From Gracilibacillus suaedae (GTDB lineage Bacteria > Bacillota > Bacilli > Bacillales > Amphibacillaceae): DNA of 64,000 nucleotides. The DNA lies in assembly GCF_017599345.1 (NCBI RefSeq), contig NZ_JAGFVL010000011.1, positions 1 to 64,000 of the forward strand, given 5' to 3'. Shown one piece after another: positions 19,791 through 41,885 of this stretch; position 1 is the stretch's first letter; the number at the start of each line of letters is the position of its first letter. The notes under the pieces were generated by a model, which had not been told where the DNA came from, searched no databases, and saw only the letters and a list, made by a program, of their open reading frames with translations. The position numbers were made by a program, and so were the translations under genes.

Positions 19791-19858
19791 GGTATATAAT
19801 TAACTATGGTGTCTATTAAGCGTTTCATTTACTTATATATATGGTGTATAATGTGTAA

Positions 19859-19867
19859 TTATCCACA
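19859..19867 (+). promoter_or_regulatory. DnaA-box-like TTATCCACA at scar left end
   Basis: The same nonamer in the same context (followed by TGTTTATAAACAG here and GGTTTATAAACAG at 24212) occurs 50-60 bases inside both left ends. It may be an integrase arm site rather than a true DnaA site. Confidence 0.4.
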
Positions 19868-19991
19868 TGTTTATAAACAGTTCTTTCTTTTTCAATGAAG
19901 GCTGAAATCCATTGACTACCTTAACCCATGTAATTGCTAAAGCTATTGTTCTTATGGCTGTACTTTGATCCATGCTCTTCACTTCCTTCAT

Positions 19992-20024
19992 ATAAAAAAT
20001 CAGTCCTAATCCGGACTGATTTTG
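19992..20024 (-). terminator. Terminator of the scar gene
   Basis: AAATCAGTCC / GGACTGATTT arms, with TTTTTTATATG following on the minus strand; it overlaps the gene's stop codon. Confidence 0.85.
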
Positions 20025-20305
20025 TCAATTCTTTGATGTGCTTGTTTAGTAGATTCTTCTACCCTGGTTACTCTTTCCGAGATTTCAGCAACATCTTTTT
20101 CATTAGCTTTCAGATCAACTTTTATGTCATCAATTCCTCTGCTAATGTAAAGAAGCGATGTTCTAACTTCAGCATCTTTCTCAGTTTCTGATTTCAAACT
20201 TTGATCTGATTGCAATTGTTGTCTTTGTTTATTGATTTGATAACCCATGTAGGCAATAATCAGAGATAGTGCTGCAATAATAGTCCCCATAAATTCTACG
20301 CTCAT
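20006..20305 (-). CDS. Phage-type membrane-anchored coiled-coil protein (lysis-cassette type)
   Basis: A 99-residue protein: one N-terminal membrane helix, then a helical region with ISRGIDDIKVDLKANEKD and ERVTRVEESTKQAHQRID. It is strongly similar along its whole length to the protein at 32912-33208 in the neighbouring prophage. The ATG at 20305 follows AAGGGGG; the longer reading adds an unlikely leader. In the intact copy the gene sits just upstream of the holin and endolysin, so a role in lysis or phage membrane remodelling is likely, but the family function is not known to me. Confidence 0.8.
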   Translation of the reverse strand: MSVEFMGTIIAALSLIIAYMGYQINKQRQQLQSDQSLKSETEKDAEVRTSLLYISRGIDDIKVDLKANEKDVAEISERVTRVEESTKQAHQRIDKISPD

Positions 20306-20479
20306 GAGCACACCCCCTTGTACATCATATGTTATCCTTTGATGATTCGTATACACATTTCCCCTTTTAAAAGACTGTGTTATGAGTTATGGTTTTCTCA
20401 TTTTTACCATCCATTTCATTAAGAGCAGCTACTCATTGCAATAGATATGCTATGAGAAAGGGGCTGCTTTAGGATTTTT

Positions 20480-20594
20480 CTGTATATTTCGAATAATTTT
20501 TTGCAGAAATTTAAACAAATCTATATATAGCAAAAATCCCCAACCATAGGCGGTTGGGGATTTCGTGAAACATATAATCTTAACGTTTTGAGAA
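20480..20594. repeat. Prophage right-end repeat, copy 1 (with old rpsI 3' end)
   Basis: Nearly identical to 41752-41877: CTGTATATTTCG, GAAATTTAAACAAATC, a hairpin with CCCCAACC / GGTTGGGG arms, and CTTAACGTTTTGAGAA, which is the reverse complement of the last rpsI codons. It ends inside the rpsI-derived core. The rest of 20357-20799 shows only AT-rich DNA with a short direct repeat TTGAACCAA (about 20693-20710). Confidence 0.85.
20529..20563 (-). terminator. Former rpsI terminator carried by the scar
   Basis: AATCCCCAACC / GGTTGGGGATT arms with a 6-base loop and TTTTTG on the minus strand, the same hairpin as the one now behind rpsI at 41814-41843. Confidence 0.85.
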
Positions 20595-20799
20595 ATATAC
20601 TTGTCCATTTAAAGTATATTGAGTCCATTGCAATCCATTTATATCAACATTTCAGGAAAAATGTATGAAAAAGGATTTAAAATGATATTACTTGAACCAA
20701 TTTGAACCAAAATGATAGATGTTAGTTGAATATAATACTAAGTGTTATTTTATTTCTAATCATGACTTATATATTCTGATATTTCATATATACATAAAC

Positions 20800-23772
20800 T
20801 TAAGCTTTTCTTCTTCTCATGAAGAGGAAGAACATGCCACTTAAGAAGAGGAAAAATCCTGCTAATAAGTACTGATAGACCGTAGTGACAGTTTCCGGTA
20901 GTTTTTGCCCGTCGTCCGTAACAGGCTGTTGTTCCATTGCTTCCTGTTCAAAAACGGTATAGGTGCTGAAGTGATCGGTTTGTGCTGTCACGTTTCCATC
21001 TTGCCATTCTCCGCCGATTGCTTCCCATTCTTCAAGTTCTGGATTCCAATAGAACAGTTGCACCTGATCTTTATCATTTACTTTGTCGCTATCAACAGAA
21101 AAAGTCAGTGTCACTTTTTCGTCGAAGGTATCCAATTGTTTTTTGCCTTGTTTGATCTCAAAGTCATAGACCACACTCAATGCTTGATCAATGTCAGCTA
21201 AACGCTCTAACTGGACTGTTGCAGCCTCGGATGCATTAGTGAAATTGGAGGCAGCTAGTTGCAAGCTAACATTTTTTAACTGAATGTTGATCGTTATACG
21301 GTGTTCCTTCAGCCATTTTATTTGGTCAGAAGTAAATGCTAGGTTAACAGTATCATTATGATCACGTAAATCAATCCATAATTCACCGTCATCAGCTAGT
21401 TGATCGAACGAACCTGTTTCGATCGTTGTCTCGTCATTCGTAACATCAGGCATTACGGTAATACGGGTTTGTTTCTTTGGTTTTTCTGGTTTCTCAGGAT
21501 CTTCAGGATCGGCTGGGTCTTTAGGATCTTCCGGATTGACAGGATTTTCAGGGTCTGGTGAAACGGGATTAGAAGTATCGATTTCTTGGATATGTGCAAC
21601 GACACTATTATTATTATAGGTGAGAGTTACCTTGTAATCATCTGCAGTCACATTATCGAATTTACCTTCCACCTTGTCGGCAGTCATTAAAGTAATATTT
21701 GCTGCCTTGTCTATTTCATAATTAGAAAGATCCAAATTCAGATCCCCACCATCAAGGTATAACAGTCCACCTACATTTAGGTGAATTTCGTCATTATCCA
21801 TTGCAATATCAAGGTTTCCAGCTTCCATTGTTAAGTTACCACTTACATTCAAAGGTCCATCTACATTAACTAAAACTGTACCATCCTCCACATAAAGATC
21901 GCCTTCTCCAAAAGCAGTCTCAGAAGTAGCTTCTAACGTTCCTCCTTGTAGCAATGTTCCTCCTGAATAACTATTATTTCCGGTCAATGTAAGTGTTCCT
22001 GTTCCTTGCTTGGTAAGCATACCACTGCCAGTTATATCATTTCTCCACCAATCATGGGCATTAAATCTTCCTTTTGACGCATCCATATTTACTGTTACAT
22101 TGCTTAAAAACGCACCATATCCATCAGATGCTGTTACCAAATCAAGTCTTCCCCAACCATTTGATTCGTCTATTACAGGATAACCTGATTCAATTTCTGT
22201 GGTATACAATACTTCCCTACGTTGTTTATCGGTCAAATAAGGCTGACGAGTTTCCAATAAAACTTCAGCCCCTTTAGGTACTACAGGGTCTAAACCTTTT
22301 GTGCCTGTTTGAGGTAATCCGTATGTAAGTTTTTCCCGATAGAATGCTTTATTTGCTTCATGATCTTCCCACTTTTCTTCATCATACGCACTTTCAAACG
22401 TATAATCCTCTGTTACTGTATGTGCATATTCGTACAAGCTCATTTCTTTTGATGCAGCTAATTCACCGAATACTTCTCCTGCATTTTGATAAGCCTTATC
22501 CAATACCTCTTGGTTTTCTGAAAGATTGTATGCGTAGGCAGTCATTGCTGTAGCTTGTATTCTTGCTCCTATAACATCAAGCGGAGAGTGCATGCCGGTC
22601 ACTATTCTATTTTCTCCCATTTGAGCTGCTCTTGTTAAGAATTCAGCATATCTTTCCGGTGTTGCGTATGCAAATCCGAATGTTGATAAATAAGCTGCAC
22701 TCGTATGTCCGCTTGGAAAAGCTCCATCTTTACCTCTCCCGTCTTCCGCTTTTCTTTTTACATATTCTAATGCAGGAATTACCTCCACATTCGTTTCATA
22801 TTGCTGGTAATGTCTTTCTCCCGTCTCTTTCTTACCGCCTGAAGGTAATGCTTCTACTGTACTTTCACCACTGCCGATTGTGTCCCAAACAGGTAAACCG
22901 TTCTCATCAACAATTTCTTTCACTTCTCCATTTGCATTCATTCTGTAAGGTCTTGGAGAAGAAAAAAAGTATTTAGAAGGATTAGACGAAGAAGGATTCC
23001 TAAATCTAATTAAATGAACTAAATCCATCGCATCTTCTAGTGCAGATCCCTCCCATTGCCCCATCCCTTGGGCTTGGTCTTCAACAGTCGCTTCTTCCAA
23101 TACTTTATCCATGTCCTCTGCAGATCTGACAACACTTGTGATCGGGTTAACGACCTCTACGTAGGCATTAGCTAAAGGCCCGTAAGCATCCATCATACTA
23201 TATACCTTATCTCTTTGATCATCATAATAGGCTGCTAACGCCTCTTCATTCGTTCTATTTTTAGTAACCTCTTCTACATATTTTATATTAGCTTCCCAAG
23301 TCTCTGGAGCTCTGATTTCTTCGTTAGCATATGTCTTCTTTTCTGCTACTACCTTTGTCTTATCATTTTTATATCCATCAAAATAAACGGTAGGACCATC
23401 ACCATATTTTGCAATCTCTCCATTTGCACCTGGTATAGTTAACGCTGTTCCGTCTCTCCAATCTGGTTGATTCATAGACCATACTTGATCAAAACCATCT
23501 AAAATATTGATAAAAGGGTTAGTTTCAGCTATATTCTTTAAGATAGGATCGTTAGCATTTCCGCCATTATCCACTGCTGGTAAAGGTTGCTCGACTTCAG
23601 GAGCATCTGTATTTATTTCTTCAGTAGTCCCTTGTGGCTTTGAAGGTTTTGAAAGCTCCTTTTCAGAATATTGACTAGCGGCCTGAACAGGAAGCTCAAA
23701 AGATGCCATAGTTAGCACTGCAAGTAGTAGTATTATCGATATTTTTTTCATGAGTTTCATAACTTTTTTCAT
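20800..23772 (-). CDS. Secreted PAP2-type phosphatase with autotransporter-like beta repeats and C-terminal anchor
   Basis: A 990-residue exported protein. After the signal peptide (about 1-33) and a Pro-rich stretch comes a class A acid phosphatase/PAP2 domain with all three signature motifs: KYFFSSPRP, PSGHTS and ENRIVTGMHSPLDVIGAR. Next comes an autotransporter-associated beta-strand repeat region (GTGTLTLTGNNSYSGGTLL), a Pro/Asp/Glu repeat linker, a further beta domain, and a C-terminal LPETV, hydrophobic helix and RRRKA tail like a sortase anchor, but with V for G. ATG at 23772 follows AAGGAG. It probably releases phosphate from organic esters at the wall. It lies alone between two attachment-site copies. 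Confidence 0.88.
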   Translation of the reverse strand: MKKVMKLMKKISIILLLAVLTMASFELPVQAASQYSEKELSKPSKPQGTTEEINTDAPEVEQPLPAVDNGGNANDPILKNIAETNPFINILDGFDQVWSMNQPDWRDGTALTIPGANGEIAKYGDGPTVYFDGYKNDKTKVVAEKKTYANEEIRAPETWEANIKYVEEVTKNRTNEEALAAYYDDQRDKVYSMMDAYGPLANAYVEVVNPITSVVRSAEDMDKVLEEATVEDQAQGMGQWEGSALEDAMDLVHLIRFRNPSSSNPSKYFFSSPRPYRMNANGEVKEIVDENGLPVWDTIGSGESTVEALPSGGKKETGERHYQQYETNVEVIPALEYVKRKAEDGRGKDGAFPSGHTSAAYLSTFGFAYATPERYAEFLTRAAQMGENRIVTGMHSPLDVIGARIQATAMTAYAYNLSENQEVLDKAYQNAGEVFGELAASKEMSLYEYAHTVTEDYTFESAYDEEKWEDHEANKAFYREKLTYGLPQTGTKGLDPVVPKGAEVLLETRQPYLTDKQRREVLYTTEIESGYPVIDESNGWGRLDLVTASDGYGAFLSNVTVNMDASKGRFNAHDWWRNDITGSGMLTKQGTGTLTLTGNNSYSGGTLLQGGTLEATSETAFGEGDLYVEDGTVLVNVDGPLNVSGNLTMEAGNLDIAMDNDEIHLNVGGLLYLDGGDLNLDLSNYEIDKAANITLMTADKVEGKFDNVTADDYKVTLTYNNNSVVAHIQEIDTSNPVSPDPENPVNPEDPKDPADPEDPEKPEKPKKQTRITVMPDVTNDETTIETGSFDQLADDGELWIDLRDHNDTVNLAFTSDQIKWLKEHRITINIQLKNVSLQLAASNFTNASEAATVQLERLADIDQALSVVYDFEIKQGKKQLDTFDEKVTLTFSVDSDKVNDKDQVQLFYWNPELEEWEAIGGEWQDGNVTAQTDHFSTYTVFEQEAMEQQPVTDDGQKLPETVTTVYQYLLAGFFLFLSGMFFLFMRRRKA

Positions 23773-24063
23773 TTCTCCTTTTCTGCTGCAAATTTTTAAA
23801 TCACTTAACCACACTACTTCTACGTTAATGACTGTATATTAAATGAATATAGGAAAAACGTTAAAATTATGTAATTTTATGCAGAAGGGAAGAGACTTAT
23901 TACGAAAATAAACGGGTATAGGGAACCTTTCTTTTGAAAATCTTTCGAATAGCACTCCCAAAAGTTATTACAACTATTAATGTGAAAAATGGAAGAAAGC
24001 GATGGAACAGCCATGTGACCGATGAAGCGAAGGAGAAAACAGGCGAGTTTTTTCAGAAACACA

Positions 24064-24100
24064 TAAAAAACCCTCTCTGCTCCATAAGAGCAAAGAGGGT
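24064..24100 (-). terminator. Terminator next to the attL copy
   Basis: ACCCTCT / AGAGGGT arms with inner GCTC / GAGC pairing, and TTTTTTATG on the minus strand. It lies 22 bases left of an rpsI 3'-end copy, the position a terminator of rpsI would hold. No convincing gene is seen in 23815-24121. Confidence 0.75.
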
Positions 24101-24121
24101 AAACCCTTGTATATAAGGTTT

Positions 24122-24145
24122 CTTAACGTTTTGAGAACTGTGGTG
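24122..24145. repeat. Attachment site copy (attL), 24-bp repeat of the rpsI 3' end
   Basis: A perfect 24-base match to 41862-41885, starting CTTAACGTTTTGAGAACTG and ending TGGTG. It equals the reverse complement of the final seven codons, stop and one more base of rpsI. It marks the left boundary of the integrated prophage. Confidence 0.9.
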
Positions 24146-24202
24146 TCTAGTAAAACCAAGTGTTTCAGCCATTTTTGTATATTGTATGTGTATTATGCTT
24201 AG

Positions 24203-24211
24203 TTATCCACA
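24203..24211 (+). promoter_or_regulatory. DnaA-box-like TTATCCACA at prophage left end
   Basis: A perfect match to the DnaA nonamer, 58 bases inside attL, followed by GGTTTATAAACAG. The element recurs at the same place in the neighbouring scar, so it has been kept for some phage-end function, perhaps integrase arm binding. Confidence 0.4.
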
Positions 24212-24279
24212 GGTTTATAAACAGTTTTAATGACTCTTGTCATTTTAATTATACATAAAAAATCTATTTAACACTACTA

Positions 24280-24504
24280 TTAAATCGACCTAGTAAGCTC
24301 CTCATTACAACGAACTTTCCAATGCCTCAAGCTTATTCTACTAGCCATATTTTCTACTTTTTCTCTGTATTTTACATCGATCATCATTTTATGTACTTCT
24401 TGTTCGTCGTCGTATTGTTTACGTTCAACTGTTGACATAGTCTTATAGCTTCTGTCTAGTTCATTGAAGTGATTGATTAGATCAAGTATCTTTTTATAAC
24501 GCAT
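24280..24504 (-). CDS. Small charged protein of unknown function
   Basis: A 74-residue, helical, strongly charged protein (starts MRYKKILDLINHF). The ATG at 24504 has AAGGAGGTGA just upstream, which supports expression. It is the outermost gene at the left end of the prophage. I do not recognise the family; no membrane segment or DNA-binding motif stands out. It may be a host gene or phage accessory gene. Confidence 0.6.
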   Translation of the reverse strand: MRYKKILDLINHFNELDRSYKTMSTVERKQYDDEQEVHKMMIDVKYREKVENMASRISLRHWKVRCNEELTRSI

Positions 24505-24807
24505 GAACAATCACCTCCTTCCATCCGCAACATATATACTAGTACTTTCGACACTATCCTCCCATTTTTTATAATTTGCATAAAATTAACAATTTAATAT
24601 GAGGATATGTAAATGCACACTCCCTATGCACCTGCATCACCTAAATAATAATTTAGCATACCGAACTATGTATATTTTAATTAGATTAATTAAATTAAAG
24701 AAAAATCTACCACTATAATATCCTCATATTTACAAATATAACAAAACATGATATTTTAATTGTATGCGGTTTCATTAGTCGTAAATAATTTAAACGGAGG
24801 GATCTAG

Positions 24808-25374
24808 ATGGTCTTAAAGAAGGCAAAGCTTGCAATTCTACTGGTGTGTCTGTTCCTATTGTTGGTATTTCCGTTGTCTGCATCAGCTACTGTTTGGGGA
24901 GGGGGGAAAAACGGAAGTGGATATACAGATTATTGGGTTAGTCCTTCAGTTAGTGAATACGGATACTCTTCTGTTTTCTCAGCAGCTGTAACAAGATGGG
25001 AAGGAGTTTCAAGCGAAGTGGTTTTCGACAAAGTTAATACTGCTATTTCTACTGCTGATAGGTATTATGTTGGTACAGCAGCAGGTGATGTTACTGGGAG
25101 AATTTATCCGTACGATTCCTCGGGAAATGTAGTGGGAACTTGGCAGTATTGGACAAGGGTTCATGCGTGGCTATATCATAATAATATGTATCAAGCCAAT
25201 TTTTCTTATACTAACAAAGTTGCAACTGCCACACATGAAATTGGTCACACATTGAAACTGGCACACCCTCAATCGAATCTTGATTTAAATAATATTATGG
25301 AGCAAGGCAAAAAAAATTATTCTACTCTGTCTTGGTATGATAAGTCTAGTTTAAGATCAAAGTGGGGTAATTAA
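24808..25374 (+). CDS. Secreted metzincin-like zinc metalloprotease
   Basis: A 188-residue exported protein with a signal peptide ending near ASA (about residue 27) and the zinc motif HEIGHTLKLAH (His143, Glu144, His147, His153), followed by a likely Met-turn at NNIMEQG (Met164). This is the matrixin/M10-like pattern HExxHxxGxxH, except that the usual Gly is Lys150. There is no long propeptide. The gene is followed after 17 bases by an unknown secreted-protein gene with its own GGAG site, suggesting a two-gene unit. It belongs to the cargo of the prophage, not its morphogenesis. Confidence 0.8.
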   Translation: MVLKKAKLAILLVCLFLLLVFPLSASATVWGGGKNGSGYTDYWVSPSVSEYGYSSVFSAAVTRWEGVSSEVVFDKVNTAISTADRYYVGTAAGDVTGRIYPYDSSGNVVGTWQYWTRVHAWLYHNNMYQANFSYTNKVATATHEIGHTLKLAHPQSNLDLNNIMEQGKKNYSTLSWYDKSSLRSKWGN

Positions 25375-25391
25375 AAAGAAGGAGTGTTAAT

Positions 25392-26063
25392 ATGAAAAAA
25401 TGGTTGATCTTAATCTCTATAACACTAGTTTTCTTAATTCCTTATGTTGCAACACAAGTGGTAGCAAGTGATGATTCAGAAACACAGCAAAATGAAGAAA
25501 CTGGACTAGATAAGAGCAAGGAGAATGGACTGGATGTTATTCCAACACTAGCAGATTACCTAGAACACACGAAATTATCTCCCATGGAAGATAGTGCCGA
25601 CCTAATTGTTGTAGGAACACCTACTAAAGACTTTACCGATAGAGAACATAAAGAAATATACAACGAAGATGATAAAGCCTTAATGGATTTTTATACAATC
25701 ACCAATATTAAAGTTAGGAATATTATTAAAGACAAAAATAATGCTGTCTCTAATAATACTTTAGATGTTATTGAGCCTATAAGTGTAATAGAGGAAGAGG
25801 GAACAGAAAAAATTATTACAACAGATGTATATTCCTATATGAAAAAAGATTCAACATATGTAATATTTCTTAAAGAAAATACATTTGGCGATTATACTGT
25901 GATAAACTTGAATGGTGGTAAATATGATCTGTCAGGCAAAGATGAAGATGATTTGAGAGGATACAATAGTGAGAAACTATTAGAGTTTAGACCTGATAAA
26001 ACTGAAATAAAAAAGAAAATTTTTGAAGAGATTAAAAATAGCTATAAAATTGATATTCAATAA
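25392..26063 (+). CDS. Exported protein of unknown function, paired with the metalloprotease
   Basis: A 223-residue protein with a signal peptide (about 1-26) and an acidic, mixed alpha/beta extracellular region containing SADLIVVGTPTKDFTD and VIFLKENTFGDYTVINLNGG. The second stretch recalls small secreted proteins that follow protease genes in bacilli, but I cannot name the family. It starts 18 bases after the metalloprotease stop, with AAGGAG upstream, and is followed by a terminator. A partner, substrate or immunity role is only a guess. Confidence 0.65.
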   Translation: MKKWLILISITLVFLIPYVATQVVASDDSETQQNEETGLDKSKENGLDVIPTLADYLEHTKLSPMEDSADLIVVGTPTKDFTDREHKEIYNEDDKALMDFYTITNIKVRNIIKDKNNAVSNNTLDVIEPISVIEEEGTEKIITTDVYSYMKKDSTYVIFLKENTFGDYTVINLNGGKYDLSGKDEDDLRGYNSEKLLEFRPDKTEIKKKIFEEIKNSYKIDIQ

Positions 26064-26075
26064 CAATCTAACTTT

Positions 26076-26118
26076 GAGGGAATAAAATCACTGAATATTG
26101 GTTTTATTTCCTCCTTTC
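26076..26118 (+). terminator. Terminator after the metalloprotease pair
   Basis: GAGGGAATAAAATC pairs with GGTTTTATTTCCTC, followed by CTTTCT. Confidence 0.75.
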
Positions 26119-26292
26119 TATGTAATAGAATACACAACTCATACTATAAATTAATTAAAATCTACTTTTATGAAGTATTACAAGATTTACTGAATTCGAA
26201 TTTCCTTCTAAAACAATATATTGTTAATATAATATAATAGTGATGTTCTAAAAATAGTAATATTACAATGACATCCTAGAAAGGGGAATATT

Positions 26293-26754
26293 ATGCTGAA
26301 CAAAAAGTTTTTTCATCTATCTTTTGTAACAATATTCCTAATAGTAATTTGTTTTCCCATTAAATCTATAGCTACTTCTTGGGCATATGATTTTGTAGTC
26401 TGGGATGGCTATGTGTATGAAGTTACTGAAGAAAAAGTTGAGATGGTTGATGAAAAAATAGGAGAAGTAACGAAGTATTCTGATATGTATCAATATGAAG
26501 GTAATTTTTCTAATAAATACCCCAAAAATACCAAGTATTTCTCGATTAAAGGCACAAGTACAAATGAAGCTATTGCCGTTGAAACAGAAAACGAAGTATA
26601 CAATAAAGCAATACGTAAAGGTCCATATGTTGGTGAGAAACGCGAAGTGAATAAGTTTAAGATTGAATACTTTATAATTTTTTTCTTTACTTTTATCGTA
26701 TTGGCTGTGATTGTATCTATCGTACTTACATTTAAGAACAGAAATCATAACTAG
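26293..26754 (+). CDS. Exported protein with C-terminal membrane anchor, unknown function
   Basis: A 153-residue protein with an N-terminal signal sequence (about 1-26), an extracellular domain rich in Glu, Lys and Tyr (YVYEVTEEKVEMVDEKIGEV) and a C-terminal membrane helix (about 125-147) ending in KNRNHN. The domain resembles none that I can name. Ribosome binding site AAAGGGG. It has its own promoter region and no clear operon partner. Confidence 0.65.
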   Translation: MLNKKFFHLSFVTIFLIVICFPIKSIATSWAYDFVVWDGYVYEVTEEKVEMVDEKIGEVTKYSDMYQYEGNFSNKYPKNTKYFSIKGTSTNEAIAVETENEVYNKAIRKGPYVGEKREVNKFKIEYFIIFFFTFIVLAVIVSIVLTFKNRNHN

Positions 26755-27124
26755 CACTTTCTTGTTATTTTCGCCTAACTCAAAAGTAATAATTCATCTC
26801 CAATAAGGTATAGTTGCATGCATCAAGTTACCATTAATGATTGCGTTCGCAAAGTGATGTTTCCGTTCACATTAATCAGACTTTTTTGAGATTATCGAAA
26901 TTTGGTTTTAAAGCCCCATCGACACACATCAATTATTAAAATTTATAATAAAGGGTTAACACTAATTAATTTTAACGAAATTCGTCGACCTTATTATGAA
27001 CAAAGGAAATATAGTTGACAAATAATAAACAAACCATCGACAACAGAATAGATGAATTGTGCATCCTTTAGATGGCACAAAAGGTTACATGATTCAATGG
27101 TAGATACAACAATACTGATCTTAA
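26755..27124. other. AT-rich gene-free stretch
   Basis: I see no coding region, tRNA or clear terminator here, only AT-rich DNA with stop codons in all frames, consistent with decayed sequence next to the gene fragment on its right. Confidence 0.4.
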
Positions 27125-27307
27125 AAAATTATTTTAGATTATTTCATTATACCATATGTAATTGGAGTAGGTGATAATAGTTATTAGCAAAAATTTGATG
27201 GGGATCCCGCTAATTATGTTAAACACAAAGAAAATAAGAATTATTTTAATCCGGCTAGTCGGAAGAAGGTGCTTGTTATATTGGAGGAATTGATTAAGGA
27301 TTTATAA
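27125..27307 (+). pseudogene. Decayed gene fragment (C-terminal part with in-frame stop)
   Basis: One frame reads DYFIIPYVIGVGDNSY, a TAG stop at 27185-27187, then QKFDGDPANYVKHKENKNYF and on to ILEELIKDL and TAA. The composition after the stop looks like real protein, and there is no start codon or ribosome binding site. I do not recognise the family. It is probably the remnant of an accessory gene. Confidence 0.4.
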
Positions 27308-27490
27308 ATAAAATAATTACCTTAAACATTCTACCTGATAAAGAAGAAACGACCATTTATAATTTTATATGAAACTATACATATATTATATTCATAAAAG
27401 CATCCTCTCAGATCCTTGTTTTACATATATATTATTTATATAATAAAGGAACGATAAACAAAGAATTCACCAAGATAATCGGAGGCTTAT

Positions 27491-33651: not shown

Positions 33652-36600
33652 TTACGCTCCTTTTAATTGATTAATTTCATATGTTAACTGATCTAAGATT
33701 TCGTAAACATTGTCAAATTCCTTATCATGATTTCTTATTTTCAATTCTTGCTCTTGATTCATTACACCAAGTGCAGAAGTTAGTGAGTAGTTATTAATTC
33801 CATTCTCGTCTCGAAAAGCTCTATGAGATTCTTCTGCAAGTAACCCGATTTTCAACTTGTCATAAATCCCTCTATCTAAATCTGATTGTCGGTAATAGGT
33901 ATGGAAATTCTGATCCATTATCACCTCTGTAGCTGTAGATTCAAAAGTTTCCTCAAAACTTTGTATATTTGTTTTTCCTGTGACAGATGAAGCTGTTACA
34001 AAGTCGGATGCTCTGACTTCTCTATAGTCAGGGTTTCCGCCATTATAACCAGTCTCAGAAACCCACACAGCACCTTTAGGCTGTAAATATAAGTTATTAG
34101 AACCGTTGACTATATAATTACTTGAATGGACACCGTTAATTATTTCTACAGAACCATCACTATCTCGTATAAGAAAGTACCTATCGCCTCCTGATTCTTT
34201 TGAAATACCAAAGTCTCCATATGGTAAGTCTATCTGCCAATTACCCCAGTAATTAGGGTCATCACGTGAAAAAGCTAAATATCCATAAGCACCACTCTTA
34301 GTGACACTAAAGTGATCAGTTGCTTGAAATGACCTAGAAGTAATAACCTCTGGTTCTGATAAACCATGTATAATATTAGACAACTCATTTTCTGGAGCAT
34401 ACGGAGTGGCTATGTCATGCTCTACTAGCTGTACTCCGTCTATCAACAACCAGTTACTGCCTGCTGTTCTAGGTCGCAACTCAATAAATGATGTATTAGA
34501 TGGTGTTGTGAAGGTAGTGTCATATCTATATGTTGTACTACTATTAAAAGGCGCTGTAAAATCTTCCGAGTGAGAACTCAAAACATTATAGTCATAGTCT
34601 AGAAATTGTACATATAATCTAGGTGTTGCTGAAGTATAATCTGGATGTTTTCTGAAATGTGCAGACAAATTAAACGTAGCATTACCTGTTGCTGCAATTC
34701 TTTGTCGTAGGTAGTTACTACTGTTTACTAAAGCCTGTTTCAAACCAAACATTATCCATAATTTATCTCCGCCTGTCTGATATATGCTCATTACCCTTGG
34801 ACTACCCACAGCACTCCACCCATTGACCATATTTTGCTGTTTAGGCGCTATTGCTTCGAATACATACTGACCTGTCTGTTGGGAACCTGCTCTTATACTT
34901 TCAAAAGAGTGGTCTGCTACAAGGTTGTTTTTAAACATGGCTGTACTGATCATATTTGTAACTGAATCTTTCAAAATTAAATTACCGTCTAATATCTCAA
35001 TACCTACATCGTCTATAGTTACTGTGTTATTACCAATCACTACATCATCAGTATAGATGTTACCAGCATAGATATCGCCTAAGTCTGCACTTAATGCAGA
35101 TAATCGGGATACATCTATTTCATTTGCAGTTACTGAATTAGTATAGATATCTCCACCATTTATTTTAGTAGTGCCGGGATATGCCCATAAATCCCGATAT
35201 TCTTTAGCATCATTTAACGCTTGATTAGCTTTTGCTTGCGCTCCTTCTGTATCTTCTACCTCTCTCCAATTTGACCAAACAGGATAGGTTGAAGGGTGAA
35301 CCTCTCTCACTACTACCTTATTATCTGCATCGACATATTCTTGTCTAGCACGTTGCTCAGCACTCCAATAAGTAGTAACAACTCCATACGTAGAACCTGT
35401 CGCACCGCTCCAACCGCTAGTAACCTGCATTACAGCTACACTAGGTTTCGGGTTATATGCAGAAGCGTCATCGCTTTCTGTAAAGGTGTTATTAGGATAA
35501 TGGTATACCCTTTGATCTGTGTAGCTTTTTGAATTTTTTTCTGAAATATTCGCTTGAATCTCAGCGTAATCTACAGAACTAAGAATATCGTTTGTTAAAG
35601 ATGGTAAATAACCGATTGGTGGATACTCACCATCATTATTTACATCATTTGTTCTAACGTAAAACTTACCATCTGCTTGAAATTTCATAATTGCAGTAGA
35701 CGAACCTATTTGTGTACCGCTACCAGAATCATCTCCTACAGAAACATCCATAGGGTTATTTCTTGATGCACTTGTTAAATCATGCGTATTATATAACGTC
35801 CATTTTCCTGCATTGTTATCCCACAAGTAAGTGTTAACTGTACAAGGCTCAATGGTTCGTATCTCATACCCATCTACAGGGTGAGGTGTCACGTAATTAT
35901 CTGAACATGCTTCCCAAGCTACAGCACTCTCACCGTCTCCGCCTGCACCATCAGCAGTATTCATTGCCAAGATATATCCATCTGATGAATAAAAACCATT
36001 ACCATGATTGGTGAATCCTTTTCCATCAAAATCAAGAATACCTTCATTTGGTGAAGTCCATATTAAAATCTCTTTTGAAGCAGGGAAAAATGTTATACAA
36101 TCCCCTGAACCGTTATTACCATCTTTCTCACCAATAAATTCAATGTTACTTGTCAAATAGTATTGATGCCCATTATCGTCATCATCAATCGTTATATTTG
36201 CACGTTGGTAAGCTGTAACGTCAATAGTATAATCAGGTGTTGCTTTGGTTGGGTCGTCTTGTCTTACTTCAATAACCCCATCTTCTTCTGCATAAACACG
36301 TACCCTGTGTGGACTATACCTGTCTGTAATAAAACCTGTACGTTTTGTTTTTAGATTCATAGAAGGAACAGGAGAAGGCTTATCTGCATAAATCAAAGCA
36401 ATAGGTTTATTACTTGTTATCTCATCTTCATAGTCACATGAAAAGGTTCCAAAGATATCATCCTGACTAGAATCGATCTGTAATGTGCCATTTATATATA
36501 TCTTTGTAGATTTATCAAAACAAGCATAACGAATAGTAGCAGAATGTAATACAACACGCTTAGAAAATGCACCGTTTGCCATGGACGCTTTTTTATCCAT

Positions 36601-38376
36601 CGTTTTAGCCAATGCTTCATTTAACGCTTGTTTGTATGCTTCATCCGCTTTTGTTTGTGCACCGCTTGGAGTTTCTTTTGTGCTTGGGTCATAATTAGGG
36701 TCGTAAGAAGTATCAGAACCTACAGTAATGCTTCCTGCGCTTAATCTTCCATCGATATGTGCATCGGTTATGATCGCTTCATTTAGGTGTACTTTTTCAA
36801 TAATCGCTTCTTCTGCTAGCAATGATCTAGTAATAGTTTGATCTGCGATGTCTGTATTAGCATCTATTTGTAACGTTTGTGCTGTTACCTCTCCTGATAA
36901 GTCCGATCTCGTTCCATGTGTATTAAATGCTCTTAGCCTGAAATACCATTGCTCATTAGTATTAGCATCGAACACATATCCACCGCTTTTTCCTCTCCAC
37001 ACAAGGTTAGTATCATCATCAGGTACAAATCCCGACGTCTGAGAAGCGTATAATTCATAACCAGCAATATAACTAGATGCGTCATAATCCCAACTTAACT
37101 GAACAGTCTTAAATGCTCCTGTCGCTGTTAATCCAGTAGGTGTTAAAGGTACAGTATAGGGAAAGTTATCATCATCTACAGTAGGGTCGGTACTTTCATC
37201 CCACATACCTGAATTGTTTTTAACCTTTTCTACAACCCACTCGATATCTTGATCTCTCTCATCCAACTGTAAGAAATTTCCTAGTGTTACATCCCCAGTT
37301 GAAGGGTCACCGATATCATATACTAACTTTAAAACTCGTGATTCAATTACAATAATAGGCTTTATTTTCATATCCCTAGCAATGCCTGTATCCCCTACAA
37401 AAACCTGTTCATGTTCTTTTCCTGATATCTTATAGTAAGTTGCAATAGACATTTCATATTCCGCTTGTGTTTCTTTTTTAGTTTGTAAATTCTCATAAGT
37501 AGATTGCAGCAAGGCTTCTTTATCCGTTTCGTCATTAAATTCTACATGTCCGAAACGATGTTCCATTTGTTGAGTATCAGGATTCCAAATACCATATGCC
37601 TGTTTGGCTTCTTCATCTCCTACCCATTCCTGACCAAGTGGCTTGTCTACAGGGTCGCCGTTTGCTGTTGACCATTCTATATCTGCAAATGTGATTTTTC
37701 TACTGTATCCATCCCCTGATTCAACACTTGAACCTCTACCATATAACGCGGTTTTTGGATAAAACAGCTTCGTTCTTCTAATACTTGTAATATCCTTGCC
37801 GATTTCAAACCGTTTACCGTTATTTACTCCTTTGCTGGCCACAATATCAACATATCTACCTGCTATGCCTGTGTCGTCTACCTCAATACGATCTATAAAT
37901 TCCCCTGTGAATTGTTTTGATGCTTCTTGTAAAGAGGCATAACCAAAGACATAATAGAAATTCATAGATTGTAACCCTAAATCAGCCACATTTCCTCGTT
38001 TCCATCGAGACTTTTCTAAAATAGCATCTAATACCTCTGCCATTGTTGCATCTGACAATCGTCTGTCCTCTATCAATACATCGTCTAATTCTTGAATACA
38101 AGGAAGGCATTTAACAGTCCTCTCGACTGTATCTGCATGTTCGTCATCTTCTTCCCTGATCACAAACAATCGAAATCTACCTTGTAAATCCTTAAAGGCT
38201 ACTTGGTTACCACCTATTAAATGTTTTGCATCTTCATCCTCAGCAGGAAAAGTAACCGTAAGTGCAACAGGTTTCTCGGTTTCTTCCTCGAAAGGTGCTT
38301 CTATATAGTTATCTGTAATGGTTAAAAGGTTATCTTGCTTATCAAAAATGTAAATGGGTGTCTTTTCAAATCCCAT
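33652..38376 (-). CDS. Phage tail-tip protein (Tal/prophage endopeptidase tail) with Fn3 and C-terminal S74-like domain
   Basis: A 1574-residue structural protein. The N-terminal 350-400 residues match phage minor structural/tail endopeptidase proteins that form the tail tip. A fibronectin type III domain follows (about 415-510), then phage-fibre helical segments (DITRSLLAEEAII-like), jelly-roll regions in the middle, and a C-terminal part with KTNIQSFEETF and KLKIGLLAEES, like the self-cleaving S74 chaperone. ATG at 38376 overlaps the Dit stop (TAATG), with AGGTGG upstream. The host-recognition part would be in the middle third. Confidence 0.88.
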   Translation of the reverse strand: MGFEKTPIYIFDKQDNLLTITDNYIEAPFEEETEKPVALTVTFPAEDEDAKHLIGGNQVAFKDLQGRFRLFVIREEDDEHADTVERTVKCLPCIQELDDVLIEDRRLSDATMAEVLDAILEKSRWKRGNVADLGLQSMNFYYVFGYASLQEASKQFTGEFIDRIEVDDTGIAGRYVDIVASKGVNNGKRFEIGKDITSIRRTKLFYPKTALYGRGSSVESGDGYSRKITFADIEWSTANGDPVDKPLGQEWVGDEEAKQAYGIWNPDTQQMEHRFGHVEFNDETDKEALLQSTYENLQTKKETQAEYEMSIATYYKISGKEHEQVFVGDTGIARDMKIKPIIVIESRVLKLVYDIGDPSTGDVTLGNFLQLDERDQDIEWVVEKVKNNSGMWDESTDPTVDDDNFPYTVPLTPTGLTATGAFKTVQLSWDYDASSYIAGYELYASQTSGFVPDDDTNLVWRGKSGGYVFDANTNEQWYFRLRAFNTHGTRSDLSGEVTAQTLQIDANTDIADQTITRSLLAEEAIIEKVHLNEAIITDAHIDGRLSAGSITVGSDTSYDPNYDPSTKETPSGAQTKADEAYKQALNEALAKTMDKKASMANGAFSKRVVLHSATIRYACFDKSTKIYINGTLQIDSSQDDIFGTFSCDYEDEITSNKPIALIYADKPSPVPSMNLKTKRTGFITDRYSPHRVRVYAEEDGVIEVRQDDPTKATPDYTIDVTAYQRANITIDDDDNGHQYYLTSNIEFIGEKDGNNGSGDCITFFPASKEILIWTSPNEGILDFDGKGFTNHGNGFYSSDGYILAMNTADGAGGDGESAVAWEACSDNYVTPHPVDGYEIRTIEPCTVNTYLWDNNAGKWTLYNTHDLTSASRNNPMDVSVGDDSGSGTQIGSSTAIMKFQADGKFYVRTNDVNNDGEYPPIGYLPSLTNDILSSVDYAEIQANISEKNSKSYTDQRVYHYPNNTFTESDDASAYNPKPSVAVMQVTSGWSGATGSTYGVVTTYWSAEQRARQEYVDADNKVVVREVHPSTYPVWSNWREVEDTEGAQAKANQALNDAKEYRDLWAYPGTTKINGGDIYTNSVTANEIDVSRLSALSADLGDIYAGNIYTDDVVIGNNTVTIDDVGIEILDGNLILKDSVTNMISTAMFKNNLVADHSFESIRAGSQQTGQYVFEAIAPKQQNMVNGWSAVGSPRVMSIYQTGGDKLWIMFGLKQALVNSSNYLRQRIAATGNATFNLSAHFRKHPDYTSATPRLYVQFLDYDYNVLSSHSEDFTAPFNSSTTYRYDTTFTTPSNTSFIELRPRTAGSNWLLIDGVQLVEHDIATPYAPENELSNIIHGLSEPEVITSRSFQATDHFSVTKSGAYGYLAFSRDDPNYWGNWQIDLPYGDFGISKESGGDRYFLIRDSDGSVEIINGVHSSNYIVNGSNNLYLQPKGAVWVSETGYNGGNPDYREVRASDFVTASSVTGKTNIQSFEETFESTATEVIMDQNFHTYYRQSDLDRGIYDKLKIGLLAEESHRAFRDENGINNYSLTSALGVMNQEQELKIRNHDKEFDNVYEILDQLTYEINQLKGA

Positions 38377-39098
38377 TACAACCACCTCTCAATATAATCT
38401 GTGCTTAATGTGGTAGAAGCAGGGGTTAATGTGAAATTATTTTCCCCTGCTACTAAACTTGGAAAATCTGCTTTCATCAAATCGATAGCATTCATCTGTA
38501 ATTCACCATCAATAGAAACCTTATTATTTTCGCAATCTATCTCCACCACATTGCCTGCCACTAAGTTATAGTTAATAACGATTTCTTCTCCTGTTTCTTG
38601 ATGTACTACCGATAAAGAATTAGTTGATTCCTGAATAGTTGCGGTAATAATAGGTGGTGTTTTTGCAGTGCTATTTAAAGTAATCGTTGTACCAGTTTGA
38701 TTCGTTTTATTTGCTCCATATTTATCAGGGTCACTGCAATAAAAAACTAGCGTAATCGGTTTGTTTGATACTTCTTCTTCCGATTCGCTAGTTTGCTCAT
38801 TAATACCGTAATACTTCTTTACAGGGTCATCTGTAAAATAGATTTCTCGTTCTTTTTCGCTATACAGTAGACCATTCATTCTTTCGATCTCAGTTCTTAA
38901 TGCTTCGGGACTACTGGCAGATAATGTACCGTCTACCTCTAAAATTCTCGGAGGTCTTGTTGCACCTCGATATAAAGAACCTTTTTTATTTGCTATTTCG
39001 GTTGCATTGATTTCCTGATTAACTGGACCTCTGCCACGAATAGCAGTGACAATAAAATCAAATTCTTCTTCATAATTAATTCCGTTTACCACTAACAT
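38376..39098 (-). CDS. Phage distal tail protein Dit (SPP1 gp19.1-like)
   Basis: A 240-residue protein: N-terminal Dit ring domain (VVNGINYEEEFDFIVTAIRGRGP, then ATRPPRILEVDGTLS) and a galectin-like C-terminal domain (PPIITATIQE onward). Dit forms the hexameric hub joining the tail tube to the tip in siphophages. It is encoded between the tape-measure fragment and Tal, the normal siphophage order. It appears intact. Confidence 0.9.
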   Translation of the reverse strand: MLVVNGINYEEEFDFIVTAIRGRGPVNQEINATEIANKKGSLYRGATRPPRILEVDGTLSASSPEALRTEIERMNGLLYSEKEREIYFTDDPVKKYYGINEQTSESEEEVSNKPITLVFYCSDPDKYGANKTNQTGTTITLNSTAKTPPIITATIQESTNSLSVVHQETGEEIVINYNLVAGNVVEIDCENNKVSIDGELQMNAIDLMKADFPSLVAGENNFTLTPASTTLSTDYIERWL

Positions 39099-39114
39099 GT
39101 ATTCTCACCACCTA

Positions 39115-39519
39115 CTATGACCTTCTCAAACGGTATGTTTTTCTTTGTTGCAATTTCGTTATATCATCTACAAATACCTCAAAATCACGACCAGCTAAAC
39201 GTAATGTAAGATGCAAGGCTTGTGGTGCACTTCCTGTAGCATCTCCTTTAATTGCACGAACCAATTCGCCCAACACACCTTTTAATTCTTGCTGGATGAT
39301 TGATCTTAACATTTTCTGTGGTGCGACAATCTCAGGGTTACCAGCACCAGCATCCCCGACCATTGCTACTGTTGGCTTGTCTACTACACCACCAGTTGCT
39401 AATGCAGGTATCTTTGGTACCCATCCGAAACCAACGCTATAACCACCTAAAGTCACCTCCTGGTTACCAATTCTAAGCTTTTCATCTACATCTATTTTAA
39501 TTTTCTTTTGTTTTCTTAA
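39115..39519 (-). pseudogene. Truncated tape-measure protein gene (C-terminal about 130 codons)
   Basis: The frame is open from a stop at 39520 to 39115. It gives IDVDEKLRIGNQEVTLGGYS, then FGWVPKIPALATGGVVDKPT and GEAGP-like VGDAGAGNPEIVAPQ, the usual end of a siphophage tape-measure protein, which normally has hundreds to thousands of residues. There is no start codon before residue 22, and the upstream part is gone. The cut falls directly beside the switch region, so a large deletion is the simplest cause. Confidence 0.8.
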
Positions 39520-39547
39520 TTATACAAGAACAAACATTCTATTTCGA
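39519..39547 (-). promoter_or_regulatory. Divergent promoter toward tail-tip/lysis genes, with operator in spacer
   Basis: Minus-strand TCGAAA (542-547), 17 bases, TATAAT (519-524). The -35 matches 4 of 6 bases. The spacer contains the palindrome GAACAAACATTC (39528-39539). Transcription would enter the tape-measure fragment, Dit, Tal and the lysis cassette. Confidence 0.5.
39528..39539. promoter_or_regulatory. SOS-box-like operator 1
   Basis: GAACAAACATTC, fitting GAACRWAYRTTC, close to the Bacillus LexA consensus GAACRNRYGTTY; one base short of it at the second half-site. Confidence 0.55.
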
Positions 39548-39562
39548 TCTAATTATTTTTGA

Positions 39563-39590
39563 TTGACTAAAGGAACGTATGTTCTATAAT
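39563..39590 (+). promoter_or_regulatory. Promoter of the immA-like gene, with operator in spacer
   Basis: TTGACT (563-568), 16 bases, perfect TATAAT (585-590). The spacer is filled by the perfect palindrome GAACGTATGTTC. This is the layout of a repressor-controlled promoter. Confidence 0.7.
39573..39584. promoter_or_regulatory. SOS-box-like operator 2 (GAACGTATGTTC)
   Basis: A perfect palindrome that fits the Bacillus LexA core GAACRNRYGTTY at every base; the flanks G and T deviate from the outer C and G. A phage repressor with similar specificity is the alternative. Confidence 0.65.
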
Positions 39591-39622
39591 ATGAATAAGC
39601 ACTACTAAATTATTACTATGCA

Positions 39623-39643
39623 GGAATTACTTTTGGTAATTCC
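39623..39643. repeat. Perfect 8-bp hairpin in the immA leader
   Basis: GGAATTAC / GTAATTCC with a 5-base loop, inside the transcript leader of the immA-like gene. No T-run follows, so it is not a standard terminator. Confidence 0.5.
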
Positions 39644-39683
39644 CTACCTCCTTATACGAGGTGTTTATTTTTCACTCTAAAAG

Positions 39684-39695
39684 GAACATACATTC
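39684..39695. promoter_or_regulatory. SOS-box-like operator 3
   Basis: GAACATACATTC, one base different from operator 1, ending 3 bases before the GAAGGAG ribosome binding site of the immA-like gene, where a bound repressor would block transcription. Confidence 0.55.
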
Positions 39696-39715
39696 TGTGA
39701 AGGAGCTGTTTGCCT

Positions 39716-40413
39716 ATGGATTACATCCCAACAAATTTAGAAATGGAAGTCGAAAAAGAACTGAAAAGATTAAATGTCATTTCTCCAATACAACTGTTAG
39801 ATATAGAAGGTATAGCGTATAAATATAACATTTTATTAAAAAGTCATAGAGGACCATCTGTATCTGGTATTTTTTCGGGAGTGAAAATAATCAAAGTGGA
39901 TTCACGATTGCATTACTTAGCACAAGACAGCAATTTTTCCATGAACTTGGCCATGTCTTATATCACTATGGCGATCAACAAGAATTACCGAAATCCTTTA
40001 AGGATTTGCAGGAGTATAAAGCTAGAAATTTCGCTTTACATTATGCAATACCCACATTTATGCTACATCATCTAGACTTACCTGAATCTCGGTTTGCAGC
40101 AATTGAGTATATAGCAACTACTTTTCAGGTTACTTATGAATTCGCTAAAGAGCGATTAACACATTTTGAAAATCAAATCACAGGAGCATTATTTTTAAAG
40201 GAGTTGAACATGCACTTTACTAATCATCAACAAATACAAGAGCAACCTGACTCGATCGACCTATATGATGATTTACCTTTTTGGGAACAACCCGACTTCA
40301 AATCATTCTTAGCAGATTTAGAGAAAGCAGGATTTAAAGAAAATGAGATTAAAAATATAGTGAATCAAATTAAACGTAAAGAAGCTGCCACTCATTCACA
40401 ACAAGGAAATTAA
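39716..40413 (+). pseudogene. ImmA/IrrE-type metallopeptidase gene, frameshifted
   Basis: Frame 1 gives residues 1 to about 66 (MDYIPTNLEMEV to IIKVDSRLHYL). At about 39915 the reading shifts, and a second frame continues STRQQFFHELGHVLYHYGDQ, with the zinc motif HELGH, to the stop at 40413. One missing base explains it. ImmA peptidases cleave phage or ICE repressors (ImmR) to induce excision after DNA damage. The ATG at 39716 sits 10 bases after GAAGGAG. No ImmR-type repressor gene is present. A sequencing error cannot be excluded. Confidence 0.82.
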
Positions 40414-40438
40414 TTTTCTTTTGGAAGGAGCTAGTCGA

Positions 40439-40612
40439 ATGAATTTGGATGATTCAATTCGCAAATTAGAAAGGTTAATAGCTATTTATTACTTAGGAAA
40501 CAACTACGTTAGTGGAGGGGTTGAGTTATCTAGAGCGGAATCGAAACTAGTTATGCGTCAAATAATGCATTCTCTGGAGATAGCTGAAATGATTAGAGAT
40601 AAGAAATTGTAA
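40439..40612 (+). CDS. Small helical protein between immA and integrase
   Basis: A 57-residue protein starting MNLDDSIRKLERLIAIYYLG. The ATG at 40439 follows GGAAGGAG; the TTG at 40421 lies inside that site. It is cytoplasmic and predicted mostly helical. Its place just before the integrase gene suggests an excisionase-like or regulatory part, but no winged-helix motif is clear. Confidence 0.65.
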   Translation: MNLDDSIRKLERLIAIYYLGNNYVSGGVELSRAESKLVMRQIMHSLEIAEMIRDKKL

Positions 40613-40679
40613 TTTTTCAATGATGATAACTCACAAATATTCCAGTTACAATAAACCAAAAATAAAAAGGTGATAGGTT

Positions 40680-41714
40680 ATGAAAAATCCAAACGGATAC
40701 GGATCTGTTTTTAAATTATCCGGGAAAAGAAGAAGACCATTCGCTGTAAGAATAACAGTAGGATGGGATGACGAAGGTAAACAACAATACGATTATTTAG
40801 GTTATTATGCAAGCAGAAAAGAAGCGATGGTTGCATTAGCTGAGTACAATGAGAATCCTTATGCGCTAGAATCAACAAAAATAACATTTGCATCTATGTA
40901 CCAGATGTTTTATAAAGAAAAATTTAAGAATATCCCTAATCATAAAGAAAAATCAAGTAAAAATGGATATAGTGCTGCATACAATCATTCGAAAGATTTA
41001 CACGAGATGCGATTTATCGATATTAAAACCAGTCACCTTCAAGATTTAATTGATAAATGCGAAAAAGGGCATGGTACCAAAAGGAAAATAAAAGTTCTTT
41101 TTAACCAAATGTATAAATTCGCAATGAAAAATGACATGGTTTCTAAAGATTACTCTAAATATATTGTTATGCCTAAAAATGAATCAGGAAGTAACCGTAG
41201 TCCATTTACGCAACATGAAATTAATTTATTATGGGATAATATAGGTCACATAGAAGACGTTGATACTGCTTTAATTATGATTTACTCAGGATTGCGTCCA
41301 GGCGAGCTTATAGAGATAAAGAATAAAGACATCCATCTTAAAGAAAGACACTTCCGAGGTGGAATAAAAACTGCTGCAGGTAAAAACAGGATCATTCCTA
41401 TTCATAAAAAAATCCATACATTAATTGAAAAGCGAATGGATCCGGAAAATGAGTATCTAATTGTTAACCAGGATAATAAGCATTTGAGTTACTATACGTA
41501 TTACCATAATCGCTGGAAGAAAATGATGGAACAATTAGGACTTAATCACAAACCTCATGATTGTCGACATACCTTTGCAACATTAATGAACAATGCTGAA
41601 GCTAATAAAGTTGCTATTCAAAGAATAATGGGACATGCCTCAAAAGACATCACAGATAAAGTCTATACACACAAAGATATTGAGCAGCTACTCATAGCGA
41701 TAGACATGCTATAG
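40680..41714 (+). CDS. int: Phage tyrosine integrase
   Basis: A 344-residue tyrosine recombinase: N-terminal arm-binding AP2-like domain (FAVRITVGWDDEGKQQYDYLG), SAM-like core-binding domain (about 70-165) and catalytic domain with Arg206 (SGLRPGEL), Lys230, His293 and Arg296 (HDCRHTFAT), His319 (IMGHAS) and nucleophile Tyr329 (KVYTHK). All catalytic residues are present. It lies 148 bases from the right attachment site and points toward it, the normal arrangement. It is the likely enzyme for insertion into rpsI. Confidence 0.95.
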   Translation: MKNPNGYGSVFKLSGKRRRPFAVRITVGWDDEGKQQYDYLGYYASRKEAMVALAEYNENPYALESTKITFASMYQMFYKEKFKNIPNHKEKSSKNGYSAAYNHSKDLHEMRFIDIKTSHLQDLIDKCEKGHGTKRKIKVLFNQMYKFAMKNDMVSKDYSKYIVMPKNESGSNRSPFTQHEINLLWDNIGHIEDVDTALIMIYSGLRPGELIEIKNKDIHLKERHFRGGIKTAAGKNRIIPIHKKIHTLIEKRMDPENEYLIVNQDNKHLSYYTYYHNRWKKMMEQLGLNHKPHDCRHTFATLMNNAEANKVAIQRIMGHASKDITDKVYTHKDIEQLLIAIDML

Positions 41715-41751
41715 GAAGGCTGTTTTCCTCTTTAAAATAAGTGTCTATTAC

Positions 41752-41877
41752 CTGTATATTTCGTGTATATTACGAGTGATTTTTTGTAGAAATTTAAACA
41801 AATCTATATATAGTAAAAATCCCCAACCATAGGCGGTTGGGGACTTCGTAAAACATATAAACTTAACGTTTTGAGAA
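41752..41877. repeat. Prophage right-end repeat, copy 2
   Basis: Near-identical to 20480-20594, with a 10-base insertion (TGTATATTAC) near the left edge and about five substitutions. It contains the rpsI terminator and runs into the rpsI stop codon. Confidence 0.85.
41814..41843 (-). terminator. Terminator of rplM-rpsI, supplied by the prophage end
   Basis: CCCCAACC / GGTTGGGG arms with a 6-base loop and TTTTTAC on the minus strand, 20 bases beyond the rpsI stop. It lies on the prophage side of the att core, so the element provides it. Confidence 0.85.
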
Positions 41878-41885
41878 CTGTGGTG
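41862..41885. repeat. Attachment site (attR) within the rpsI 3' end
   Basis: 24-bp perfect direct repeat of 24122-24145, covering the final rpsI codons (PQFSKR and stop). Integration here leaves the rpsI product unchanged. Confidence 0.9.

Follow-up and report, generated by a model that had tools for sequence, protein, structure and literature searches.

The segment behind rpsI, the gene of ribosomal protein S9, in a 64,000-nucleotide stretch of Gracilibacillus suaedae (contig NZ_JAGFVL010000011.1, positions 1 to 64,000; hereafter, the window) is very probably a tandem accretion island made up of three or more mobile elements, now in partial decay, that were inserted at the 3′ end of the gene by integrases of at least three families (I1, I2, and I3). 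The units are called C, B, and A in order from rpsI: C is a shortened siphovirus prophage, B a composite remnant around a phosphatase gene, and A a one-gene scar of a second prophage. Genomes of the family sample (n = 159) are labeled G001 and so forth, and loci in them L001 and so forth. The genus sample comprises 17 genomes, 16 of which—including that of the window—gave an rpsI match.

The gene rpsI (41863–42255, minus strand) is intact, and its last four sense codons together with the stop codon form a core of 15 bases. The exact 16-mer CTTAACGTTTTGAGAA occurs at 20579, 24122, and 41862 on one strand and has zero copies on the other strand of the window; 8e-5 matches are expected by chance (base composition, 64 kb, both strands). 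The exact 24-mer CTTAACGTTTTGAGAACTGTGGTG is common to the copies at 24122 and 41862 only. These repeats, listed in an earlier sequence-only reading of the window, are confirmed as exact matches and constitute the proximal core of C (41862–41885, 24 bases), its distal core (24122–24145, 24 bases), and the core between B and scar A (20579–20594, 16 bases). With up to three mismatches, the 15-mer has seven matches versus 5.6 expected; this number is unremarkable, so it is the exact copies, together with their flanks, that count as evidence. The boundaries are homologous attachment arms rather than bare repeats. The repeat at 20579 extends beyond its 16 bases, since 20474–20594 (core included) is 92% identical to 41756–41877 (E 7e-43). 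The fourth boundary begins at 19802, where AACTATGGTGTCTA stands against AACTGTGGTGTCTA at 24136, and the following arm (19834–19882) matches the distal arm of C (24178–24226) with 84% identity over 50 columns (E 3e-6). The degraded fourth trace suspected near 19801 is real; with this match in its support, it is a left attachment arm with a core reduced by about nine bases. The boundary alignment that the same reading had proposed as a check has returned homologous arms on both sides of scar A. The same core is found in the same orientation at each boundary—at the fourth only as a deleted trace.

Relatives display intermediate steps of this arrangement, as judged by reading up to 20 kb behind rpsI in the 15 other genus genomes. 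In the nearest relative, G007, rpsI is followed by the hairpin of window positions 24066–24122, the gene of the PAP2 phosphatase, and a phrog_1863 gene; C is absent. If the window flanks of C are joined at the core, 210 of 215 positions match G007, where a single core stands in place of the two that are separated by 17.7 kb in the window. The S9 protein is unaltered by the insertion: window and G007 are 100% identical with the first residue read as M (the window start codon is GTG; 99.2% if read as V). In G013, scar A is absent and its place is visible: rpsI and PAP2 are followed by a core at L021:4115, then by TTATATTTCAACACC and a hairpin of its own. The sequence TTAATTATAT beyond the far side of scar A is the same as that behind the G013 core, although this match is short. 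Hence, the inserts are missing in relatives joined at a single core—C in G007 and, with the short far-side match, A in G013. The proposal of rpsI as a repeated landing site, made from the window sequence, is supported by these empty-site relatives, the arm homology, fossil integrases, and the occurrence of rpsI-adjacent integrases in 29 of the 159 family genomes. The further claim that the island splits a conserved cwlD–rpsI neighborhood calls for a correction. The Amidase_3 gene (4287–4997, the cwlD of that claim) lies 36.9 kb from rpsI here, whereas the interval measures 4.3, 5.2, and 14.8 kb in G014, G016, and G013, respectively; the island accounts for about 22 kb, and the remaining 15 kb holds mostly genes that are also found behind rpsI in G007 and G013.

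The core and the integrases are widespread in the family. The exact 15-base core is present in 132 of the 159 genomes (a reversed control pattern gave two matches overall); 30 genomes carry at least two copies, and six carry three. The rpsI-adjacent integrase genes or pieces of the three families, some truncated or broken, come from 14 genera. The I1, I2, and I3 queries are 24–31% identical to one another, and all match Pfam Phage_integrase. The I1 query, which is the window integrase, found 24 places in 22 genomes; at 10 of them, in the window and nine other genomes, the integrase is convergent with rpsI at a distance of about 150 bp. For I3, eight of nine places adjoin rpsI, one per genome in eight genomes. 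The I2 query gave 16 places in 14 genomes: 11 lie next to a full rpsI, three others show only part of an rpsI copy or the edge of the locus, and the last two show neither. Of the six three-copy genomes, four (the window, G045, G070, and G142) were read in whole or part, and a fifth, G114, at two of its three cores; the sixth is G157.

Some of these loci are stacks in their own right. The stack of G070 (L062–L063) has three cores. It combines an open I3 integrase gene with a distal arm of the I2 type, thereby repeating the I3/I2 arm pairing of B, and also contains another I3-type arm, a distal copy of rpsI, and an arm of the I1 type. In G045, an I1 integrase lies behind rpsI on contig C28 (L049), and contig C31 (L075) carries an I1-like distal arm, a core, an I2 unit, and a core; the contigs look like one stack split by assembly, whose adjacency we infer. 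Two I2-class integrases lie in series at rpsI in G034 (L091) and G146 (L094), the nearer being 76–77% and the farther 39–49% identical to that of G005. In G012 (L023), an I1-type arm lies behind rpsI and the matching integrase 41 kb away; the first 20 kb of this interval contain transposase-like and metal-transport-like genes, named by sequence appearance.

Prophage C is bounded by the cores at 24123 and 41863 and spans 17.7 kb (17.8 kb had been claimed). It is a deletion derivative of a siphovirus prophage with both cores intact, because a relative at the same site in G073 has the genes that C is without. The G073 element measures 38.5 kb from core to core, its integrase is 67% identical, and five further C proteins match in order with 29–48% identity. 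In G073, about 22 kb separate an M78-like gene from the tape-measure gene. Among ten scanned G073 proteins—nine from this stretch plus the M78-like one—matches include the small and large terminase, portal, minor head protein, repressor, RecE, RecT, and a DnaD-like helicase loader. Pfam or PHROGs scans of 17 open reading frames of C, all of at least 80 amino acids, found none for head, packaging, or replication, the genes expected of a functional temperate siphovirus. The PHROGs category "head and packaging" on the tail-tip protein is a label of tail-tip families.

The proximal arm of C (41715–41862, minus strand) features a terminator-like hairpin about 20 nt past the rpsI stop codon, behind which direct repeats of 12 bp that resemble GTAATATACAA, recognized by eye, reach as far as the stop codon of the integrase, as delineated by alignment with nine rpsI-adjacent relatives and scar A. 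The full-length I1 tyrosine integrase (40680–41714, plus strand; PF00589, E 5e-26; phrog_1) is convergent with rpsI. Its best match among named phages has 41% identity, and a search of IMG/VR gave zero close relatives; the one relative among genome contigs (55%, Oceanobacillus sp. J11TS1) has no rpsI in the sequence examined there. An M78/ImmA-like peptidase gene (39710–40413, plus strand; phrog_87, E 3e-8; PF06114, E 4e-4, just under the cutoff) is split into two overlapping frames. This broken gene adjoins the large internal deletion of C, which sits between position 39710 and the C-terminal remnant of the tape-measure protein (39115–39456, minus strand; phrog_1535, profile positions 1046–1144 of 1152). 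The following genes, all on the minus strand, encode the distal tail protein Dit (38376–39098; PF22768, PF05709), the tail-tip or tail endopeptidase protein Tal (33652–38385; PF06605, phrog_19445), a PHROGs-matched phrog_1863 protein common to C and scar A (32912–33208), an SPP1-type holin (32510–32761; PF04688), and an amidase endolysin (31599–32510; PF01520, phrog_2742). The distal cargo of about 6.6 kb (24808–31461) comprises, by profile scans, a matrixin-like protein with a score just under the cutoff, a histidine kinase, a DUF3221 protein, a GNAT acetyltransferase, a possible serine protease with a weak match only, and two genes without assignment; the possible protease had zero matches among solved structures. 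The distal arm (24146–24235) aligns with that of scar A.

Scar A (19802–20594) has the same two ends as the prophage at 24122–41885. Since both ends match C and the phrog_1863 gene is common to both, A is the remnant—two ends and one gene—of a prophage related to C, in agreement with the one-gene scar described from the window sequence. Its proximal arm (20474–20578, minus strand) carries the same terminator-like hairpin as C. The sole remaining gene (20006–20356, minus strand; phrog_1863 by PHROGs) has a G007 ortholog with 92% identity, and the aligned distal arm (19802–19882) bears the shortened core. Beyond the stack lies a further terminator-like hairpin (19720–19790, minus strand; fold −23.7 kcal/mol, z −4.8), a candidate for the original rpsI terminator.

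Unit B had been described as a phosphatase segment and is not a clean single element; its arms and fossils indicate a remnant of composite origin in which three integrase types have left traces. The PAP2 phosphatase (20800–23814, minus strand; PF01569, PF12951) is its probable cargo and shows an odd domain mix, namely a passenger-associated repeat and a possible LPxTATN-type sorting signal, the model of which scored just under the cutoff. The former rpsI-proximal arm (24066–24122, minus strand) contains a terminator-like hairpin (fold of 24060–24122: −28.6 kcal/mol, z −7.0) and sits directly behind rpsI in G007 and G013. It adjoins a fossil C-terminus of an I3 integrase (HVTDEAKEKTGEFFQK; 24009–24065, plus strand; tblastn 74%, E 5e-6; in G007 79%, E 2e-7), which in turn is joined to a fossil fragment resembling residues 270–285 of the I1 integrase (23963–24010, plus strand; 62.5%). 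This I1-like fragment reaches E 0.001 in G007, 4e-5 in G003, and, at the orthologous place, 1e-7 in G013 (60% over 30 amino acids). The distal arm (20595–20755) is of the I2 type: With the core, it is 78% and 81% identical to arms of G005 and G001 (E 4e-22 and 2e-34), which belong to 8.8-kb I2-type rpsI units with an open I2 integrase gene in G005 and an integrase end only in G001. Both units carry restriction-type defense genes. That of G005 (L032:3976–9058) has part of a methylase and a ResIII/Eco57I protein; that of G001 (L034:10936–19250) has a type III methylase, a Res gene that is split, a GmrSD protein, and a Phd/ParE pair.

The PAP2 gene is probably not old chromosome but the cargo of two or three elements that have collapsed into one unit. 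That it was inherited behind rpsI, with only C and A integrated and the repeat at 20579 serving as a secondary attachment site, would agree with its place in the genus, where 5 of the 16 genomes that gave an rpsI match have it between that gene and PfpI, but is unlikely given that integrase fossils adjoin its proximal arm, that its distal arm is held in common with the I2-type units of G005 and G001, and that the more distant G011 and G016 are without PAP2 at that place. In addition, the PAP2 proteins of the window and G003 share 92% identity, whereas the flanking PfpI and 1090-aa protein reach 78% and 74%; against G007, the order is reversed, with PAP2 at 91% being less conserved than PfpI at 96% and the 1090-aa protein at 95%. 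This conflict fits transfer of B rather than descent. The corresponding values for G010 are 87% for PAP2, 92% for PfpI, and 83% for the 1090-aa protein. If B is indeed mobile, it could still be a single element with an I3-type proximal and an I2-type distal arm instead of a collapsed pair or trio. G070 lends this some weight by showing the same pairing together with the open I3 integrase gene between cores at 701 and 11631; the I3-type units of G002, G048, and G068, though, are closed on the distal side by a copy of the rpsI 3′ end and not by an I2-type arm, and B also contains the I1-like fragment, so that a single element appears the less probable of the two. Finally, the repeats themselves could be segmental duplications of the rpsI end that arose without integrases, and I3 units elsewhere do carry copies of the last 20–28 rpsI codons. 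In both downstream copies of the window, however, the rpsI homology stops at the core and arm sequence lies beyond, and for C, the single-core join of the empty site in G007 rules duplication out; as an account of the repeats, it is very improbable.

Several observations weigh against the stacking of integrase-borne elements at rpsI as proposed here. PAP2 occurs without an intact distal direct core in G010, where an inverted copy with two mismatches is found, and in G003, where the copy is shortened; the core at the A–B boundary is lost in G007. Beyond scar A, the match to the open G013 site is only about 10 bases long. The I1-like fragment of B gives a weak match in the window (E 0.07), and the integrase fossil of G013 is partly in the opposite orientation. 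No excisionase was identified. At 14 of the 24 I1-like places (L037–L060), there is no rpsI in the sequence examined, which for L047, L048, and L054 ends 134–143 bp past the integrase. Of the 30 multicore genomes, 26 have listed positions, and the copies lie on the same contig and strand within 40 kb in 16 of these, on different contigs in 8, and far apart in 2; extra cores are therefore not in every case shown to be stack members. Regarding the inverted core of G010 (L024:7967), it has an rpsI-like flank and a hairpin behind PAP2, suggestive of a local inversion.

The accretion reading implies the following history. Tyrosine integrases of at least three families would recognize the 15-base core at the end of rpsI and recombine it with an identical core on the element, whereby the rpsI sequence would be kept and the element would land directly behind it. 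Because each insertion leaves a core at both ends, either rpsI or the far core could serve later elements as an entry point. C, using an I1 integrase, would be the newest insertion, because the closest relative is without it. B would represent PAP2 cargo between an I3 proximal and an I2 distal arm, plus the I1 integrase fragment, and A the two ends of an older I1 prophage with one gene. Internal deletions would have shrunk C, B, and A and mostly spared the arms. Integration would also exchange the terminator, the hairpin being placed 15–25 nt past the stop codon by I1 and I3 elements and about 80–90 nt past it by I2 elements. The order of A and B and any present ability to excise are further points that we infer.

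As the proximal arms carry a terminator-like hairpin, integration would replace the terminator behind rpsI. Such a swap of the hairpin along with the last codons is seen directly between the window and G007: the hairpin of B lies behind rpsI in G007 and that of C in the window, where the former is now 17.7 kb off. The hairpin begins the arm soon past the stop codon in the alignment of ten rpsI-adjacent I1 loci (window included) and scar A, and its RNA fold in the proximal arm of C has a z of −7.1. Seven stretches were folded, of which L022:400–470 is uninformative for being on the wrong strand side. In an alignment of 13 sequences, which left out I1-type arms such as those of G055 and G104, 97.9% of the cells pair. 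Of 500 shuffles, 0 reached the observed percentage of pairing, 0 the cells changed on both sides, and 0 the covariation score; these counts are not probabilities, the sequences being related. A strict scan of 130 nt for a hairpin followed by at least five T in six found a terminator-like site in 23 of 29 rpsI-adjacent loci: in 8 of 8 for I3 at 15–25 nt past the stop codon, in 11 of 11 for I2 at 77–90 nt, and in 4 of 10 for I1. With 20 shuffles per locus, the observed value was reached by one shuffle in one I2 locus (L095) and by none in the other 22 loci with a site. Less favorable for the hairpin are three results. Of its 11 pairs, 3 are changed on both sides, a number reached by 60 of 500 shuffles; another measure that counts pairs or types was reached by 26 of 500; and the strict U-run rule missed six loci, all of them I1 loci that show the hairpin in the alignment but have a shorter U-run. 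The hairpin may function as the rpsI terminator, or it may serve the integrase alone, because the flanking genes converge. Whether elements at rpsI have been selected to carry a replacement terminator in the attachment arm, like the replacement codons—as three distant integrase families do—is a tentative proposal to which we give slightly less than an even chance. If true, elements with an arm-borne terminator could stack up behind an essential gene at almost no cost to the host, which would explain the growth of such piles. No literature was found on a terminator carried in the phage attachment site (attP), the available text of works on rpsI integrases using "terminator" for other matters; within this limited search, the swap appears less discussed than rpsI stacking.

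The stacking itself is known, contrary to the expectation from the window alone that examples at rpsI are few: the gene is a published hotspot in Streptococcus and Macrococcus. In Streptococcus, rpsI is reported as a site of integrative and conjugative elements (ICEs; PMC4701971) and of integrative and mobilizable elements (IMEs), whose integrases at rpsI belong to three distinct tyrosine integrase families and which undergo tandem accretion there (PMC5357655); IMESag-rpsI is a further case (PMC5090054). These IMEs target rpsI as in the window but are mobilized by conjugation (PMC5357655, PMC5090054). The prophage GBSInt5 and elements resembling phage-inducible chromosomal islands (PICIs) were also found at rpsI (PMC7487436). 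GBSInt5 resembles the window in being a prophage that uses the rpsI 3′ end; it lives in another host and is mixed with ICE pieces, and a stack of prophage remnants is not described in the available part of that paper. In Streptococcus salivarius, 16 of 37 composite islands are at rpsI, decayed units included (PMC7563491). These islands share with the window the tandem elements and decayed flanked remnants at the rpsI 3′ end and the tyrosine integrases; they consist of ICEs, IMEs, and remnants, whereas C and A of the window are prophage-derived and the host belongs to another family. The remnants described there include cis-mobilizable elements (CIMEs), decayed elements with both attachment sites but without recombinase or transfer genes; B, with cores on both sides and an integrase only as a fossil, would fit as far as retained sites and a lost integrase go, and in A, one core is partly deleted. 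The composite island McRImecD-1/McCI of Macrococcus caseolyticus is likewise located at rpsI, and its authors note rpsI-adjacent integrases in Bacillus (PMC5341023). It features, like the window, an rpsI-adjacent tyrosine integrase and a core that includes the rpsI 3′ end, and three direct repeats bound its two units; its cargo differs, and circular forms were detected there (PMC5341023). The window extends this hotspot to a family sample of 159 genomes, its intermediate relatives show how a prophage stack builds and collapses, and a comparison of two close relatives directly reveals the hairpin swap next to an essential ribosomal gene. It is thus a well-documented further case of known rpsI stacking rather than a new phenomenon, distinguished by prophage-derived units and good intermediate relatives.

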